DNA from: Bacteroidota bacterium
Lineage (GTDB): Bacteria; Bacteroidota; Bacteroidia; Bacteroidales; WCHB1-69
Direction: 5' to 3'
DNA: 64,000 bases
NCBI GenBank assembly: GCA_019135895.1
Contig: JAGVVH010000154.1
Location: 1-64,000 of the forward strand
The translations under genes were made by a program, and so were the position numbers. Positions 8,050 through 20,135 of the stretch are shown here, in pieces. The stretch's first letter is position 1. Every line of letters begins with the position of its first letter. Under the pieces are notes generated by a model. The model had not been told where the DNA came from and searched no databases. It was given only the letters and a program-made list of their open reading frames with translations.

Positions 8050-11004
8050 TTAATGAGAGGTTCTTTTTCTCTTTGGAGCAGTCTTAAGCTGAACTCGTTC
8101 AAGGAGAAATGTAAGCAGCCAGGCGAGCACGAAGTACAAAATGGCCACCATAATCAAGGGAAAGAAAGCATCGAAAGTCCTGCTCCGAATGATATCACTT
8201 GCTTTGGTCAGGTCTTGCACGGCAATATAACCCACAATAGCAGTCATTTTCACCAATGCAATAAATTCTCCCTTGTAAACAGGTAGCACTCTTTGCACAG
8301 CTTGTGGCAGCACAATATTGAAAAAAGTCTTTACTTTACTGAACCCCATGGCAATACCTGCCTCTGTTTGTCCTTTGTTAACACTTTCGATAGAGGTTCT
8401 AAACATTTCTGACACATAAGCAGCAAAATTCATAGCAAAAGTAATGATCGCCACCGTAACACCGCTGATATTGAGGGGGGCAAAAATAACGTAGAACATC
8501 AACATCAGCAACACTACTTGCGGAATGCCCCGTAAGAGGTCTATATAGACTTTAGCAACAATTTGAAGGACTTTATTCTTGCTCATTCTCATTGTGCAAA
8601 CCAAAGCTCCGAGTAAGGTGCCCAGTAAGGCTGCCATAACGGAAATTAGAAAAGTTACTTTCAATCCATTCCAAAGTAATAGATATCGTTTTTCGAGAAT
8701 AATATTATTGTAAAAACTTTCTTTCACACGAGCAAAGAAACTCTTTCCCTCAGTATCATTTGCTGCAATTGATTGATCTTTAACAGTGAGCAAAACCTGA
8801 GGATTTACAAAATAGCCTTCGGAAAAATTGACCACTTTCCTACGTTCTTCGGTGGCAGTCATATTTGAAATCACAAGATCTGCTTTTCCTGATTCAAGTG
8901 CAGCAATCAATGCAGAAAATTTCATGTCGTAATATTGCACAGGACGTCCCAACTTGTAGGCAATTCTTTCTATCAGTTCACAATCCAATCCCACAATTTT
9001 ATTATCGGAGACAAAACACATTGGTTCACGATTTGCAGCAATTGCAACAATTAGAGGTTTTCCTTCCTTCACTTTGGGAATAGCTGTTATTTCATAATCA
9101 GAGCCGTCTTTTCGCACCCAGCGACTGATTATCTGATCCAATGTACCATCTTTTGTAAATTCTGTTAGAACTTCATTCACCTGTGCCAACAATTCAGTGT
9201 TATTTTTCGGGAAAGCAATAGCGGCATATTCATCGGTATATTCTTTCGGCAGCACAACAAGATCCTCATTTTTATTGGAAACTTTCAGAGCAGTTGTGTA
9301 AGCGGTGATAACATAGTCCAATTTATGAGCTTGCAGTGAAGCAACGGCATCCATAATATCATCGAAACACTGAACCTCAGCCTTAGGATAATGACTGCGA
9401 ATATACATTTCACCGGTCGTTCCGGTCATGGCTCCTACTTTAGAAACAGCGATGTTACTGCCATCATTGACGAACGTATTTTTCTTATTCTTTTGAGCAA
9501 GATTTTTTTTCATCACCACCATTCCTGAAGTTGTTTCAAAGTAAGGGTCGGAGAAGGCAATTTCTTTGGCACGTTCTTCGGTTACCATAATGCTGTTTCC
9601 AATAATATCTACTTTCCCGCTGATAATGGCAGCAAGTAAACCTCCGAAGTTATATGTAGATATTATGGGTTTAAGCTGTTGTTCAGCAGCAAATCTGAGC
9701 ATAAGTTCAAGATCAAACCCCACCACTTGATTTCCTTTAACAAAAGAAAAAGGGATACTTTCTCCTGTCGTCCCGATACGCAAGCTTCCATTTTTTCCGG
9801 TATTGTAAATTGAGGGCATTTCGGCAGTTTCACTATTATCAATCCATCTTTTGTAAATTTCTTCGTAAGTACCGTCTGTCTTAATTTTTTGCAGAAACTT
9901 ATTGAAAAGGTCCCGTTGTGCAGTATTCTTCAACTGAAAGCCAATTGCAAAATTATCTTTAGTGACAGCATCATCCAGAAAGGCAAACTCATTATTTTTT
10001 TGCATATAGAATTTGCTGCGTACATTATCCAGTAGGATGGCATCACATTGTCCTTGTTTAAGAGAAGTGACTAAGTCTGTAGAAAGGTCAATCCGAATAA
10101 TTTCGGCATTCGGAAAGTGCTCAGTAACATATTCATCCTGTAAAGAACCCAGTAATACTCCAATTCGTTTGCTATGAAGGTCATTGATATCGGACATAAG
10201 ATTGGATTCTTCCTTAACGGAATAGTCTTTCACCACAGCAGCAATACCTCCTTTATAGTATGGTTCTGTAAACAAAACACTCTTGGCACGTTCCTCAGTG
10301 ATAGTCATACAGGCACCAATAATATCGGATTTATTTGACAACAAAGAAGATATCAAGGCTCCGAAATCCATATTCTGAACTTCGAGTTCCATGCCCAGAC
10401 TTTGTGCGAGAAGGCTAACAAATTCAATATCAAAACCAACAATTTGTTGTTTATCGTCAAAGAAAGAAAATGGTTCTGTAACTGCACTGGTTCCGAACTT
10501 TAGGACTCCATTTTTACCTTCCCATTTCATTTCCGGCATGGGAGCAGGTTTCCCTTTTTTGGGGAACCATCGTTTCATCATGTCATCATAACGTCCATCA
10601 GCTTTTAATGCTTTAAGAAGAGAATCAGCTCTGTGTTTAAGATTGTGATCCTGAGGGCGAACAGCCATCCCGTAATTATCAACAGTAATCAAATCCGGAA
10701 GTATTTTCAATCCGGCATTTTTTGCCAAAATATTGCGTAAAATAGGTTCATCGTAAGCTGCCGCTTTTTCAAGTCCCTTTTGAACGGCAACACACGCATC
10801 TAAGGGTGAATTATAATAAACACATTTGGCATCAGGGAACTTCTGCCAAACTAATTGGTCGGCAATAGTACCTGTTACAACTGCAAACTGTGAATTACTA
10901 AGTTCATCAAGCTTTGTTATTTCTGTCTGTTTCTTGTCGGAAGAACATGAAAAAAATAAAACACAGAAGAGTGAGTAAATGATAAATGAGTAAAATTTTC
11001 TCAT
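8050..11004 (-). CDS. Multi-domain substrate-binding protein fused to amino acid ABC permease
   Basis: The 984-residue protein starts with a lipoprotein-type signal (lipobox FFSC, Cys20). It then carries periplasmic SBP_bac_3 material in an unusual order: a half domain (about 37-146, C-terminal lobe only), two full domains (about 165-390 and 405-632) and a final half (about 648-742, N-terminal lobe only). Repeated marks are EPFSFF/IPFSFV, VGFD(I/L)E, MTITEERAK and the ending YKRW. From about 775 there is a GlnP-type permease with several membrane helices and the coupling loop EAGIAMGFSKVKTFFNIVLP (881-900). Together with the ATPase it forms an importer for polar amino acids or similar ligands. 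The two end halves could pair to give a third complete binding domain. Substrates cannot be deduced. Confidence 0.85.
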   Translation of the reverse strand: MRKFYSFIIYSLFCVLFFSCSSDKKQTEITKLDELSNSQFAVVTGTIADQLVWQKFPDAKCVYYNSPLDACVAVQKGLEKAAAYDEPILRNILAKNAGLKILPDLITVDNYGMAVRPQDHNLKHRADSLLKALKADGRYDDMMKRWFPKKGKPAPMPEMKWEGKNGVLKFGTSAVTEPFSFFDDKQQIVGFDIEFVSLLAQSLGMELEVQNMDFGALISSLLSNKSDIIGACMTITEERAKSVLFTEPYYKGGIAAVVKDYSVKEESNLMSDINDLHSKRIGVLLGSLQDEYVTEHFPNAEIIRIDLSTDLVTSLKQGQCDAILLDNVRSKFYMQKNNEFAFLDDAVTKDNFAIGFQLKNTAQRDLFNKFLQKIKTDGTYEEIYKRWIDNSETAEMPSIYNTGKNGSLRIGTTGESIPFSFVKGNQVVGFDLELMLRFAAEQQLKPIISTYNFGGLLAAIISGKVDIIGNSIMVTEERAKEIAFSDPYFETTSGMVVMKKNLAQKNKKNTFVNDGSNIAVSKVGAMTGTTGEMYIRSHYPKAEVQCFDDIMDAVASLQAHKLDYVITAYTTALKVSNKNEDLVVLPKEYTDEYAAIAFPKNNTELLAQVNEVLTEFTKDGTLDQIISRWVRKDGSDYEITAIPKVKEGKPLIVAIAANREPMCFVSDNKIVGLDCELIERIAYKLGRPVQYYDMKFSALIAALESGKADLVISNMTATEERRKVVNFSEGYFVNPQVLLTVKDQSIAANDTEGKSFFARVKESFYNNIILEKRYLLLWNGLKVTFLISVMAALLGTLLGALVCTMRMSKNKVLQIVAKVYIDLLRGIPQVVLLMLMFYVIFAPLNISGVTVAIITFAMNFAAYVSEMFRTSIESVNKGQTEAGIAMGFSKVKTFFNIVLPQAVQRVLPVYKGEFIALVKMTAIVGYIAVQDLTKASDIIRSRTFDAFFPLIMVAILYFVLAWLLTFLLERVQLKTAPKRKRTSH

Positions 11005-15006: not shown

Positions 15007-15702
15007 ATGAAAAAATGGAAAACAAAAAGTGGAATTGAAGTAATTCAAATTTTATCGGGAAGATGCAATGTGTTTTTACTTTCAAACGAAAGTAAAAATA
15101 TATTGATTGATACATCCGTAAAAAGATTACGAAATAAACTGGAGAAACGACTTGATTCACTTGGTATAAAGACTATTGATTATTTGATTTTAACTCACTC
15201 TCATTTTGACCATGCAGCGAATGCACAGTGGATTAAACAAAGATTTAATTCAAAAATAATCATACAAAGTAAAGAAGAAAAATACTTGTCAACCGGAAAG
15301 AATATTATCCCAAAGGGCACAACTTTTCTGACACGTCCACTAATAAATTTGTTGGGAAAACATTTGTTTCATCTCTTTAGATATGAGCCCTGTAAGCCTG
15401 ATATTACAGTAGATTCTCATTATGAGTTAACTGAATTTGGGAAGAAATTATATTTATTGCATTCTCCGGGGCATACCATTGGGTCAATGAGTTTGATTGT
15501 GGATGATGAAATTGCATTTGTTGGAGATGCCATGTTTGGACTCTTAAAATGGTCAGTCTTTCCGCCATATGCGGAGGATGTAGAAATGATGATAAAAAGT
15601 TGGGGGAAATTGTTAGAGACAAATTGTTCAGAATATATACCCTCACATGGAACTGCAAATAGCAGACTATTAGTTAAAAAAGATTATAATAAAAGAAGCT
15701 GA
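15007..15702 (+). CDS. MBL-fold metallo-hydrolase
   Basis: The 231-residue cytoplasmic protein has the full metallo-beta-lactamase-fold metal site: THSHFDHAAN (HxHxDH), LHSPGHTIGSMSL, the bridging Asp in AFVGDAMFG and the final His in IPSHG. The family includes glyoxalase II-like and lactonase-like hydrolases. Nothing in the sequence fixes the substrate. Its stop is 1 base from the ftsW stop on the other strand, so the two transcripts must overlap. It occupies the place where murG would be expected in a complete dcw cluster. Confidence 0.82.
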   Translation: MKKWKTKSGIEVIQILSGRCNVFLLSNESKNILIDTSVKRLRNKLEKRLDSLGIKTIDYLILTHSHFDHAANAQWIKQRFNSKIIIQSKEEKYLSTGKNIIPKGTTFLTRPLINLLGKHLFHLFRYEPCKPDITVDSHYELTEFGKKLYLLHSPGHTIGSMSLIVDDEIAFVGDAMFGLLKWSVFPPYAEDVEMMIKSWGKLLETNCSEYIPSHGTANSRLLVKKDYNKRS

Positions 15703-15703
15703 G

Positions 15704-16804
15704 TTATTGCTTTGCCCTATTTTTACTAATATTGAGCAAGGTGCCAACAATGATTCCCGAAAACAACATTGAAGCTCCCCCCCTGCTAATAAAAGGAAGT
15801 GTTTGACCTGTTGCCGGAAGCAATTCGCAATTAACCCCAATATGTACCAATGCCTGGCAAGTAAACCAAAATCCTATCCCGATTGCCAATAGCATTCCAA
15901 AAGTCCCCTCGCTATGTCGGGCAATCATCCAGGATCGGTAAAAAAATATTAAGTATGCAAAAAGAATTGCAATCCCCACAATAATTCCAACTTCCTCAAC
16001 TACAGTTGAATAAATATAGTCTGTATCTTTTTGTGCAAGAGATTTTTTGATTACACCCTGTCCAGGTCCTGCCGGCATTAAGCCGGATCTGGCAATGGCT
16101 GCTTTTGCTAGTACCATCTGTCTTCCATACTCTGCGGTAGCCTTATCCACAGGCTGTTTTTCATCTTTATTTTTTGAAGAAAAATAATAGGACAATCTGT
16201 TCTTTGCAGTATCGCCACGACCGATATTCAGGGATAGGATTCCAATTCCTCCTATCATACAAATAAAGACAAAAAGAAAAATGTACTTAAGCTTCACATT
16301 TCCGATGAACAAGACAACCATAGAGGTAAAAAACAGAATAATGGCAGTAGAAAGGTTTGCCAGCGCCATCCCTCCGCAAAATAGACCGATAACTAAAAAA
16401 AGAAATAACACCTCTTTTGAAGTAAGTTGTTCGTCTTTATTTAATCTTAGAGCTAAAAATTTCGAGATATAAAAAACAACAAAAAAACCAATGAAGTAGA
16501 AAGTTTGAAAATTCTGGCCAAAAATTTCGATCGCTCTCCCTTTTTCCCCTGTCAACAATGTTATTATCATGAGTACAAAGGCAATAATTAAGAGTAAAAA
16601 AGAAAATTGAGACAAATTTCTATAATCAATTTTGTAAAAAATATAGATTCCTATAAAACAGAGAGCTATGTGAAACAATTGAGATAGTATTTTGCCTGTT
16701 GAACTATATACTGCATATAATGAGATTAATGACAAAATAATAGTCACAACCAGGACTATGAGATCTCCTTTAAAATTAATTTTATCAATCAATTTCTTGA
16801 ACAT
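15704..16804 (-). CDS. ftsW: FtsW-type SEDS peptidoglycan polymerase
   Basis: The 366-residue polytopic protein has about ten membrane helices and the SEDS ending LPATGQTLPFISRGGASML, plus the DTDYIYSTVVEEVG segment. FtsW works with FtsI to make septal peptidoglycan, and its place after mraY-murD fits. It is on the short side, and one usually invariant stretch is altered. Family members read R-W...FQPSE after the fourth helix, while this one reads GRAIEIFGQNFQTFYFIGF. It has lost RW and PSE and gained hydrophobic residues. The polymerase may thus be atypical. It follows murD by 12 bases. Confidence 0.85.
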   Translation of the reverse strand: MFKKLIDKINFKGDLIVLVVTIILSLISLYAVYSSTGKILSQLFHIALCFIGIYIFYKIDYRNLSQFSFLLLIIAFVLMIITLLTGEKGRAIEIFGQNFQTFYFIGFFVVFYISKFLALRLNKDEQLTSKEVLFLFLVIGLFCGGMALANLSTAIILFFTSMVVLFIGNVKLKYIFLFVFICMIGGIGILSLNIGRGDTAKNRLSYYFSSKNKDEKQPVDKATAEYGRQMVLAKAAIARSGLMPAGPGQGVIKKSLAQKDTDYIYSTVVEEVGIIVGIAILFAYLIFFYRSWMIARHSEGTFGMLLAIGIGFWFTCQALVHIGVNCELLPATGQTLPFISRGGASMLFSGIIVGTLLNISKNRAKQ

Positions 16805-16816
16805 ATTGAAACCATT

Positions 16817-17374
16817 TTAAAGTTGAGCAACTGCTTCTATGAATTTATCTCCTCTTTCACGATAAGTTCTGTAAATCCCGTTACTGGTAGTTCCTGGAGA
16901 AAACAAAACCACATCGCCCTGTTTACAGGAATAGTAAGCAGTTCTTACGGCATCTTCAAGATTCATAGTAAAAAAAACTTCTTTTCCAAGTCCTGTAAAG
17001 AAATCCAATATCTCGGAATTGTATACTCCTTGTATTATTATTCTGGATACTTTTTTATTTATACTTTCCAACAGATCTTCCGTTATCAAATCAATATCAT
17101 CAATATTCATAATCCAGGCGATAGGTTTATACATGCTTTCAAGTGCAAACCATACAGAATTGATATTTGTTGCCCTGGAATCATTGACAAAGTCAACCCC
17201 TTCAATACTTTTGATATACTGAAGTTTATGTTTAGTCCCTTCAAAATCTGAAAGGGATTCACTTAAATTCCGGTTACGGATATTGATCAATTTATCTGAC
17301 AATGAAGCGGCAATAGATGCGGAACTTACTTCATTATTATAGATTTTATAATTATTTGATTTTTGATTTGCCAT
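16817..17374 (-). CDS. murD: Truncated MurD: only the C-terminal ligase domain remains
   Basis: MurD (UDP-MurNAc-Ala:D-Glu ligase) is normally about 440 residues; this product has 185. It aligns with the C-terminal third: LINIRNRNLSESLSDFEGTKHKL, then FVNDSRATNINSVWFALESM and DVVLFSPGTTSNGIYRTY. The nucleotide-recognising N-terminal domain and the ATP-binding GTNGKT domain are missing entirely. The ATG lies 2 bases after mraY, so the front half has been cleanly lost or replaced. Motifs that remain are also changed: AGGxDKG became MNIDDID, and SPACASFD became SPGTTSNG. It cannot catalyse the reaction alone. A complete MurD must exist elsewhere if peptidoglycan is made. Confidence 0.82.
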   Translation of the reverse strand: MANQKSNNYKIYNNEVSSASIAASLSDKLINIRNRNLSESLSDFEGTKHKLQYIKSIEGVDFVNDSRATNINSVWFALESMYKPIAWIMNIDDIDLITEDLLESINKKVSRIIIQGVYNSEILDFFTGLGKEVFFTMNLEDAVRTAYYSCKQGDVVLFSPGTTSNGIYRTYRERGDKFIEAVAQL

Positions 17375-17376
17375 GA

Positions 17377-18633
17377 TTATCTTACTTTAAGTGTTACTAC
17401 TGTTAATACTGCCAATAATATTCCGATGATAATAAAACGTTGTACAATTTTAGCTTCATGCAGCCCTTTTTTTTGATAATGATGATGAAGCGGGGCCATA
17501 AGGAAGAATCGTTTTCCTTCACCGTATTTACGTTTGGTATATTTAAAATAGGCAACCTGAATAATTACAGAGAAGGATTGAATAAGGAATATTCCACAAA
17601 GAATGGGAATCAGAAGTTCTTTTCGAATAATAATACACAACACGGCTATTATTCCTCCAAGTGTAAGGCTACCGGTATCTCCCATAAAAATCTGGGCAGG
17701 ATAGCAATTCCACCAATAAAAGCCGATACATGCCCCGACGAGCGAGGCCGTAAAGATTACAATCTCCCCGATATTGGGAATATACATAATATTCAGGTAA
17801 TCTGCAAAAATAGCATTTCCTGAAACGTAAGCCAAAACAGAGATTCCGACCGCAATGATTGCCGATGTGCCGGTTGCCAACCCATCAAGTCCATCAGTTA
17901 GGTTGGCACCATTGGATACACCGGCTATTATGAATGTTATAATAAGAATATAGATTAGAGAAGACCATTTGCCCGACTTGTCTCCCATCCATTGTGTCAG
18001 CCATGCATAATCAAATTCATTGTTCTTTACGAAAGGAATGGTAGTAATGGTCGATTTTTTTGCAGGACTATTGCTAAATGATGTGGTTGTTTTCGACACA
18101 TTTTCAAATTTGAAAACCTGTTCAGTATTAACAAATTTACTTTGTCTTGAAGTTTTTTCCTTAATAACAACATCAGGATGGAAATACATAATAACTCCGA
18201 TTATTAAGCCCAAAATAATTTGCCCAATAAGTTTCTTTTTTGGTGAGAGTCCCTCTTTATTTTTTTTATAAATCTTAATATAGTCATCTGAGAATCCAAT
18301 AGCTCCCAACCATATTGTAGCAAAAATCATGAGCAATATATAGATATTATTCAGCTTTGTAAGAAAAAGCACAGGAACCAAAATAGATGCAATAATAATC
18401 AGTCCACCCATTGTAGGAGTCCCCTTTTTCTCCATTTGTCCTGAAAGCCCCAAATCACGAATTGTCTCTCCGATTTGTTTTTTCTGCAAAAATTTGATGA
18501 CTCCTTTTCCAATTATCACAGAAATAAAGAGAGACAAAATTATTGCCAATGCCGCCCGGAAGGAGATATATTGAAATAAACTTGCCCCGGGGATATTAAA
18601 ATTTTCTAGCCATTCAAATAAATAATATAACAT
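17377..18633 (-). CDS. mraY: Phospho-N-acetylmuramoyl-pentapeptide transferase
   Basis: The 418-residue membrane enzyme attaches phospho-MurNAc-pentapeptide to undecaprenyl phosphate, giving lipid I. Ten or so membrane helices are visible along with the family blocks [43 protein letters not shown] and [11 protein letters not shown]. The catalytic Asp and the His cluster are intact. A hydrophilic insert around residues 155-215 is typical of Bacteroidota. It lies between murE and the truncated murD in the dcw cluster. Confidence 0.95.
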
Positions 18634-18665: not shown

Positions 18666-20135
18666 TTAATCGTTAAAGTATTCACAAACAATTTCCATAT
18701 CATCAAAATGATGTTTTACATGATTTATCTCCTGGTAATTTTCATGTCCTTTTCCTGCAACCAGCAACACCGCATTGTCGGGGAGCATAAGGCAGGCTGT
18801 TTTGATAGCTTCTTTTCTATTTTCAATTATCAATACATTCTTTTTAAAAGATACAGGAATCCCTTCCTCCATGTCAGAAAGAATCTTATTGGGATCTTCA
18901 GTTCTGGGGTTATCGGAAGTTAGAATAACTTTACTGCTATATTTACATGCAGTAGCTGCCATCACCGGACGTTTCAGTGCATCACGGTCGCCTCCGCAAC
19001 CAACAACAGTAATAATCTCTACATTATTTTTAGTGATTTCTTTTATTGTGGAAAGCACATTATTGAGTGCATCGGGAGTATGAGCATAGTCTATAACAGC
19101 AGTGCATCCTCTCTGGTTTCTGACCAGTTGGAATCTTCCCGGGGCACTTTCAAGGTTGCTCAAAGAAACTAAAATCTCATCAGCAGGAAGTCCCAGTAAT
19201 CTTGCTGTACCAAAAATGGCAAGTAAATTATAGGCATTAAATTTTCCGGTAAGTTTGAAAAACACTTCCTGATTGTTAATATAAAGATCAAGTCCCTCAA
19301 AACTGTTATCCACAATTTTTCCTTTAAAATCGGCTGCCGTTTGCAAGCTATAAGTATAAACGGATGTTTTGCTGTTTTGAACCATAACCCTTCCATTTTT
19401 ATCGTCAATGTTGGTAAGGGCAAAAGATTTTTTGGATAGTTTGTCAAAAAAGGACTTTTTAGCTTTGATGTAGTTGGCAAAAGTCTTATGAAAATCCAAA
19501 TGGTCATGAGTGATATTACTAAAGATAGCTCCTGCAAATGTCAGACCGGCAATACGATGCTGACAAATCGAATGTGAACTCACTTCCATAAAACAAAATT
19601 GACAACCTGCCAATACCATTTGGTATAAAAGTTTATTTAATGTCACAGCATCAGGAGTGGTATGAGTTGACGGAATAACTTCATCATTAATTTTATTCTC
19701 AATAGTGGAAAGCATTCCTGATGCATAACCCAGATTGACAAAAAGTCTGTGGAGAAGCGTTACGGTAGTTGTTTTTCCATTAGTACCTGTAATGCCAACT
19801 AACTTAAGTTTAGTACTTGGGTTATCATAAAAGGCACTTGCTATTTTCCCCAAAACCACTGAAGAATCAGCAACTAGTATGTAAGTAATTTCAGAGTTAA
19901 TATCTTTCGGTAATACCTCACAAATGATGGTTGAAGCTCCTTTATCTATTGCTTGATTAATAAATAGATGACCATCCACTTGAGTTCCACGTTGAGCAAG
20001 ATAAATAGGAAAAGAATCATCATCTCCGGGTTTAACCTCACGTGAATCAAATTCTATTGAAGAAATAAGTCGGTCATTACGGCCGATAATATCGTACTTT
20101 CCTATATGTTTGAGTAAAAAAGATAATTCTTTCAC
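18666..20135 (-). CDS. murE: UDP-MurNAc-L-Ala-D-Glu: meso-diaminopimelate ligase
   Basis: The 489-residue Mur ligase is complete, with ATP-binding GITGTNGKTTTVTLL, the SSHSI segment and the C-terminal TSDNPRTEDP. The DNPR motif marks meso-diaminopimelate as the amino acid added, so the cell wall is of the DAP type. The VAGKGHE ending is also present. It sits between ftsI (71-base gap) and mraY (32-base gap) in the cluster. Confidence 0.95.
   Translation of the reverse strand: MKELSFLLKHIGKYDIIGRNDRLISSIEFDSREVKPGDDDSFPIYLAQRGTQVDGHLFINQAIDKGASTIICEVLPKDINSEITYILVADSSVVLGKIASAFYDNPSTKLKLVGITGTNGKTTTVTLLHRLFVNLGYASGMLSTIENKINDEVIPSTHTTPDAVTLNKLLYQMVLAGCQFCFMEVSSHSICQHRIAGLTFAGAIFSNITHDHLDFHKTFANYIKAKKSFFDKLSKKSFALTNIDDKNGRVMVQNSKTSVYTYSLQTAADFKGKIVDNSFEGLDLYINNQEVFFKLTGKFNAYNLLAIFGTARLLGLPADEILVSLSNLESAPGRFQLVRNQRGCTAVIDYAHTPDALNNVLSTIKEITKNNVEIITVVGCGGDRDALKRPVMAATACKYSSKVILTSDNPRTEDPNKILSDMEEGIPVSFKKNVLIIENRKEAIKTACLMLPDNAVLLVAGKGHENYQEINHVKHHFDDMEIVCEYFND

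Follow-up and report, generated by a model that had tools for sequence, protein, structure and literature searches.

In a large group of Bacteroidales the catalytic two thirds of murD have been lost, and the strong selection on the last third points to a second job for the C-terminal domain (CTD) encoded there. One such CTD-only gene lies in the window (the whole 64,000-nucleotide stretch analysed here, which is contig C107 of a draft genome). We consider it likely that the inner part of the murD of the dcw cluster survives in these bacteria after a swap to a MurD2/MurL-like pathway and is kept for a non-catalytic job. In the course of events that we propose, MurI and MurD (D-glutamate addition) would have given way to two proteins encoded at other sites, a MurD2-like ligase (contig C248 in the window's own genome) and a MurL-like epimerase (C342). 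With this swap the cell would no longer have required the dcw MurD as a ligase and would have lost its nucleotide-sugar and ATP domains, and the last ~180 residues would have been retained as a separate small protein because they perform some non-catalytic task that is still required. The data themselves show how the gene is conserved, selected, placed and repeatedly truncated, and that its occurrence fits the presence of MurL-like and MurD2-like genes and the absence of MurI; the MurD2-like and MurL-like proteins would presumably carry out the replacement chemistry. MurD figures in textbooks as an essential enzyme and is a drug target, and the removal of catalysis with one domain kept, apparently at least eight times, is a natural experiment that argues for a second function missed by enzyme studies.

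The gene (positions 16817..17374, minus strand) has an ATG start and an unbroken frame, as the first-pass annotation had described, and its 185-aa product comprises, by profile matches and a fold model, the final helices of MurD's central domain and the CTD. The description of murD as reduced to its C-terminal domain is borne out by the MurD model TIGR01087, which the protein matches only at positions 264-440 of 441 (124.9 bits, E 4.4e-36, with this partial coverage below the curated cut-off of 211.95), and by a profile search of the 185 residues that gave no match to Mur_ligase_M (the ATP-binding domain with the P-loop) or to the N-terminal domain; PF02875 matches below threshold (E 6e-5, 24.3 bits, cut-off 28.4). 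Both motifs said to be kept, SLSDF and the hinge-region motif NDSRATN (residues 64-70, codons at 17165..17185, minus strand), are present. The reported motif drift is equally real: SPGTTSNG (residues 159-166, codons at 16877..16900, minus strand) stands where 42 of 43 full-length dcw MurDs, from MurI-positive and MurL-positive genomes, have SP[AC]CASFD, one of two D-Glu-binding motifs absent from the window protein, the other being GG.DKG. The protein thus shares with full-length MurD the fold, the order of elements, the dcw place between mraY and ftsW and the NDS(K/R)ATN region, but lacks the N-terminal and ATP domains, scores below the family cut-off and has lost the D-Glu motifs, and for these last three reasons it is ligase-dead by architecture and cannot have ligase activity on its own.

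The fold of the C-terminal glutamate-ligase domain is predicted to be present. An AlphaFold2 model of the window protein, built with 15 related sequences, has a mean pLDDT of 81.4, mostly above 90 over residues 51-185 and low before residue 51, and in a comparison of this model with PDB structures the best 33 of the 50 matches listed are all MurD (best E 7e-12). The matches also include structures 8r6s and 8w9z of plastid RNA polymerase, in which the matched subunits are presumably the MurE-like ones. These MurE-like subunits are a precedent for reuse of the Mur ligase fold without ligase function, although they derive from full-length MurE in plants and have another partner and role than the CTD described here.

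The gene sits in a run of murE (18666..20135), mraY (17377..18633), the CTD-only gene and ftsW (15704..16804), all on the minus strand; its start codon follows the mraY stop by 2 nt, in agreement with the first-pass annotation, and ftsW starts 12 nt after the stop of the CTD-only gene. The surrounding cluster, called otherwise ordinary, is so only up to a point, since the run stops at ftsW and is followed in the ORF list by an oppositely oriented frame (15007-15702). Elsewhere in the window, a 984-aa frame (8050-11004, minus strand) looks, from its sequence, like a fusion of several solute-binding domains with a permease domain of an amino-acid ABC transporter. The genome to which the window belongs (G000) comprises 5.09 Mb in 579 contigs and is 93.87% complete with 8.77% contamination; it is about twice the size of most members of its family (mostly 1.6-2.9 Mb, with G006 at 4.6 Mb), and this size and contamination suggest that the bin may be mixed.

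We compared the locus across a relatives set of 60 genomes, 36 of which, including the window's own, belong to the window's family (order and family being tool labels, and the genomes mostly drafts). The MurD model finds a match in 59 of the 60, and the frame at the dcw site is short, that is, CTD-only, in 34 of the 36 family genomes. A full-length MurD at the same site in relatives, which the first-pass annotation had held would speak against its reading, occurs in the remaining two, G018 and G030 of one genus, and because the 34 others are short these two look like the ancestral state and not like the sign of an artefact. Together with loci from outside the family we retained 65 short loci (34 family and 31 outside, G049 included), leaving out a 111-aa piece in G040 and the locus of G135, both cut by contig ends. 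Among family copies, GG.DKG is found in 1/34 and SP[AC]CASFD in 0/34, and the aligned CTD-only copies retain the [ND]D[SA] region, which is strongly conserved; a C-terminal QL marks 30/34 family copies vs 1/31 others, and the first ~20 residues are altered in the window protein as well as in many of its close relatives. In three genomes (G009, G013 and G037) the match to the MurD model continues a short way further upstream, through one or two stops, and these extensions may derive from the missing portion of murD. The nearest named records are uncultured Bacteroidales or Bacteroidetes metagenome-assembled genomes, several of them from animal gut; six of them appear to be family genomes already in the set (G003, G005, G020, G021, G025 and G035) and do not constitute an independent count.

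Of all neighbours mraY is the most constant: it precedes the gene on the same strand in 64/65 short loci, within 100 nt in 62, and the 65th locus ends at a contig edge. Downstream, ftsW is found in 58/65, mostly within about 30 nt; two of the other seven have less than 1 kb of sequence there, and five, all from the family (G004, G016, G017, G021 and G029), have no ftsW in the following 3-5 kb and an intact CTD gene. These five loci (L088, L093, L096, L102 and L104) span several genera of the family, with mraY directly upstream in four and a contig end in L093.

The protein is maintained by purifying selection. Across the eight measurable CTD-only pairs of ten (two were dropped for saturated dS, and some of the eight have dS near 2 or 3), dN/dS is 0.04-0.15, compared with 0.02-0.10 for mraY and 0.02-0.12 for murE; it exceeds the mraY value in each of the six pairs measurable for both, so the constraint on the CTD is weaker than that on mraY. 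None of the CTD matches listed has a stop codon inside it. The earlier suggestion, that the protein is established and may have taken on a new role, is thus partly borne out: this selection and the 34/36 family genomes support its first half, and the role itself is hypothetical.

Evidence for a pathway swap comes from genes elsewhere in the genome. The first-pass annotation had proposed a search for a complete murD outside the cluster, and this search was successful: a complete second MurD-like gene (334 bits with TIGR01087) lies on contig C248, and the other matches to this model in the genome are weaker (E 6e-30 to 7e-6), lie in longer frames and are presumably other Mur-type ligases, two of them being the window's murE. 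The second MurDs of all 22 fetched loci, that of the window's genome included, have E at the position of E. coli D182 and R at that of K348, and all 40 dcw MurDs aligned (of 108 at hand) have D and K there; two of 24 initial MurD2 matches, which have the D/K residues and look like dcw MurDs, were dropped. The E/R pair is reported for the L-glutamate-specific MurD2, in which changing these two residues switched the enzyme to D-Glu (PMC8788868). The genome further encodes a MurL-like protein on C342 (234.5 bits with NF041275), located via relatives in which the MurL-like and MurD2-like genes adjoin (G009, G018, G037, G039, G046, G047 and G054); in G000 the two are on separate contigs, and no MurL candidate was visible among the ORFs near MurD2 in it and three other family genomes. 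In four genomes both matches fall in one frame of 885-949 aa, which looks like a fusion of MurL with MurD2 (G110:C12:29778-32177, G198:C6:2610-5033, G271:C16:3490-5910 and G135:C329:4125-6818).

MurL-like genes and above-cut-off MurI do not overlap in the relatives set or in the wider set from the order. TIGR00067 (MurI) has no match in the window's genome at its 93.87% completeness, and matches above cut-off occur in 0/36 family genomes vs 18/24 others of the relatives set, with weak matches in 2/36 family genomes. MurL-like genes are present in 32/36 family genomes vs 5/24 others (37/60), the four family misses being only 65-75% complete, and no genome of the 60 has both a MurL-like gene and an above-cut-off MurI. 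Extending this to 247 genomes of the order with completeness >=90%, 81 have a MurL-like gene, 154 an above-cut-off MurI, 12 neither and none both, although 16 MurL-positive genomes have weak TIGR00067 matches (E 1e-5 to 3e-12). Among 198 genomes drawn from the phylum, the only strong MurL match is that of the window's genome, with two others at E 1e-4 to 3e-4. We call these proteins MurL-like because their scores (204-285 bits, best 285.3 among the 81 genomes) are far under the curated Xanthomonadales cut-off of 700; for five relatives' proteins that we scanned, NF041275 is the sole NCBIfam match at E 0.01, and Pfam gives weak DUF6395 matches in two and nothing else. A D-amino-acid transaminase as the source of D-Glu was considered and set aside, since TIGR01121 has no match above cut-off in the 60 genomes, a weak test in which only 1/14 control genomes exceed the cut-off.

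The gene content suggests that these bacteria use a MurD2/MurL-type route to peptidoglycan. As in the Xanthomonas pathway (PMC8788868, PMC5808125), the window's genome has an E/R MurD, a MurL-like protein and no MurI match; it differs in that the host is a member of the Bacteroidales, that the MurL-like scores are so low and that the route here is a predicted one, and MurD2 and MurL have neighbouring locus numbers in Xanthomonas (PMC8788868) where their counterparts here are on different contigs. MurL has been listed in Gamma- and Alphaproteobacteria and actinobacteria (PMC8788868, PMC5808125), with low-similarity orthologues in a fungus, cyanobacteria and an amoeba (PMC5808125), and the term "Bacteroid" does not occur in the main texts of the two papers. 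About a third of the order genomes sampled (81/247) would thus use a route that these papers report from other groups. Neither MurL in Bacteroidales nor a CTD-only MurD is reported among the literature matches listed, a search with subscription journals largely outside its scope.

CTD-only genes track this apparent swap. The 77 MurL-positive genomes outside the family comprise 30 with a short dcw gene, 41 with a full one, one with an incomplete 5' end (G046), one cut by a contig end (G135) and four in which no dcw-type MurD was found (G054, G084, G108 and G154), which suggests, if these drafts are not simply incomplete, that some genomes may do without the CTD; gene context was inspected for all 30 short and 12 of the 41 full loci, the remaining full ones being assigned by score and frame length. 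In MurI-positive genomes, all 76 with a match (17/18 in the relatives set and 59/60 in a further set) have a full-length gene and 0/76 a short one. Fisher's test for 30 short and 41 full against 0/76 gives p 5.8e-12, which is too strong because kinship is ignored, so we give more weight to the gene tree. One genome departs from the pattern: in G049 (98% complete) a CTD-only gene lies near 299596-300003 (locus L082, G049:C4:294600-305000), and neither MurI nor a MurL-like gene nor a full MurD was found. The swap does not force the loss of the ligase, since 41/77 keep a full MurD whose catalytic motifs are mostly intact (P-loop in 24/27 examined outside the family, other motifs in 26-27/27). In the full-length MurDs, the ratio of outer-part to CTD divergence is 1.33 in MurL-positive vs 1.15 in MurI-positive genomes, a somewhat greater divergence that one would expect if it is the CTD that remains necessary. 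Some MurL-positive genomes, such as G060, G178, G208 and G232, have a full-length dcw MurD beside a MurD2-like gene and no MurI above the cut-off.

The tree, built with FastTree from MraY, MurE and FtsW only and rooted at the midpoint, contains eight sister groups that pair full with short genes, with support of 0.99-1.0: G178/G082, G208/G123, G228/(G181,G090), G232/(G150,G039), G060/G163, G194/G104, (G018,G030)/G009 and G170/G068 (the G040 piece and G004 were left out, and the pair G046/G235 was not counted because of the incomplete 5' end of G046). From these groups, at least eight truncations look independent and to have led to much the same product, provided that full length cannot be regained; regain by recombination would reduce the number. 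The family itself is not one clade in this tree, in which G009, G018 and G030 stand apart from the rest.

For the retained domain we tentatively favour, as one possibility, that it binds and organises partners at the membrane step beside MraY: mraY is its most constant neighbour, and a binding role at this step of precursor assembly fits the linkage, the intact folding and the purifying selection. The low dN/dS, the truncations that look independent and the persistence of the CTD beside mraY even where ftsW is gone indicate that the ligase became dispensable and the CTD did not. The main alternative, improbable in our estimate, is a sensor or regulator that binds a muropeptide or glutamate and tunes MraY, MurD2 or another Mur ligase; the protein has the fold of the domain with which full-length MurD binds glutamate, and the [ND]D[SA] region is conserved, but the known D-Glu-contacting motifs have been lost in family copies. 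The frequent presence of ftsW close downstream would also suit a stretch kept just to space ftsW or couple its translation, irrespective of the protein, and this we regard as very unlikely, given the low dN/dS, the lack of stops in the matches listed and the five family genomes with an intact gene and no ftsW in the next 3-5 kb.

Other readings fare worse still. The first-pass annotation had also considered a binding partner of a split MurD, in which the CTD would act in trans with an N-terminal half as a D-Glu ligase; the predicted intact fold would permit this, but the TIGR01087 search found no N-terminal-only murD in the window's genome, for which we therefore reject a split enzyme, the D-Glu motifs are gone from the window protein and nearly all family copies, and the complete second MurD has a CTD of its own, all of which makes it a highly unlikely arrangement. 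Fragmentation into 579 contigs and 8.77% contamination might raise the suspicion of an assembly or binning artefact, but the same structure recurs at 65 loci in 65 genomes, one per genome, including a 5.26-Mb contig (G181) and another of 1.38 Mb, and for the trait as such we consider this explanation negligible.

The binding role at MraY can be combined with a further possibility, which adds to the preferred explanation and does not compete with it: the murD of Bacteroidales, perhaps of Bacteroidota, may give rise to a CTD protein from an internal ATG in addition to full MurD, such that truncation removed the outer gene only. We hold this to be possible, if short of an even chance. A Met just before LALxGKHN is present in 100/104 full-length dcw MurDs (142 loci, 106 distinct, 104 with the motif once one without the motif window and duplicates were dropped), and 30/65 CTD-only proteins (10 family, 20 outside) start at this place by a loose pattern. 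The RNA there is less structured than in synonymous-codon shuffles by +2.28 kcal/mol (n=100, the top of a 41-point scan), compared with an average of -0.92 at other in-frame Mets (n=703; p 2.5e-21, a small p-value that overstates because the 100 sequences are related). When these are grouped into 21 clusters at 70% identity, the internal Met is positive in 17 (p 0.008) vs 2/21 for other Mets, and equivalent sites in MurE (-0.14, n=71) and MurD2 (-1.78, n=15) lack this effect. Third codon positions upstream of the internal Met have lower GC and higher A. The effect is larger in full-length genes of MurL-positive (3.40, n=26, excluding G106 and G267, which have neither MurI nor MurL) than of MurI-positive genomes (1.36, n=15; p 0.008), and the difference persists after GC correction (+2.20 +/- 0.68).

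Several observations weigh against an internal start. In the window protein and in many of those closest to it, the first ~20 residues differ and the start lies elsewhere; the signal within MurI-positive genomes is weak (p 0.026, n=15); and outside the order, where the Met is present in 21 of 25 scored (29 loci, 4 without a scorable site), the structure signal is non-significant (+1.57, p 0.13, n=13; +1.33, p 0.38, n=12). The Met may also owe its conservation to protein structure, and after any truncation the next ATG would serve as the start. A likeness exists in the Rpn genes-within-genes, in which a C-terminal domain is translated separately from an internal start, although these form a toxin-antitoxin and phage-defence system (PMC10327210) with no kinship to murD, and for murD the inner start is only predicted. 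We regard an inner start in murD as plausible, and the full combination, in which the inner ATG yields a separate CTD protein with its own needed function at MraY and lineages with MurD2/MurL repeatedly gave up the outer gene for the ligase but retained the inner one, as having perhaps one chance in three.
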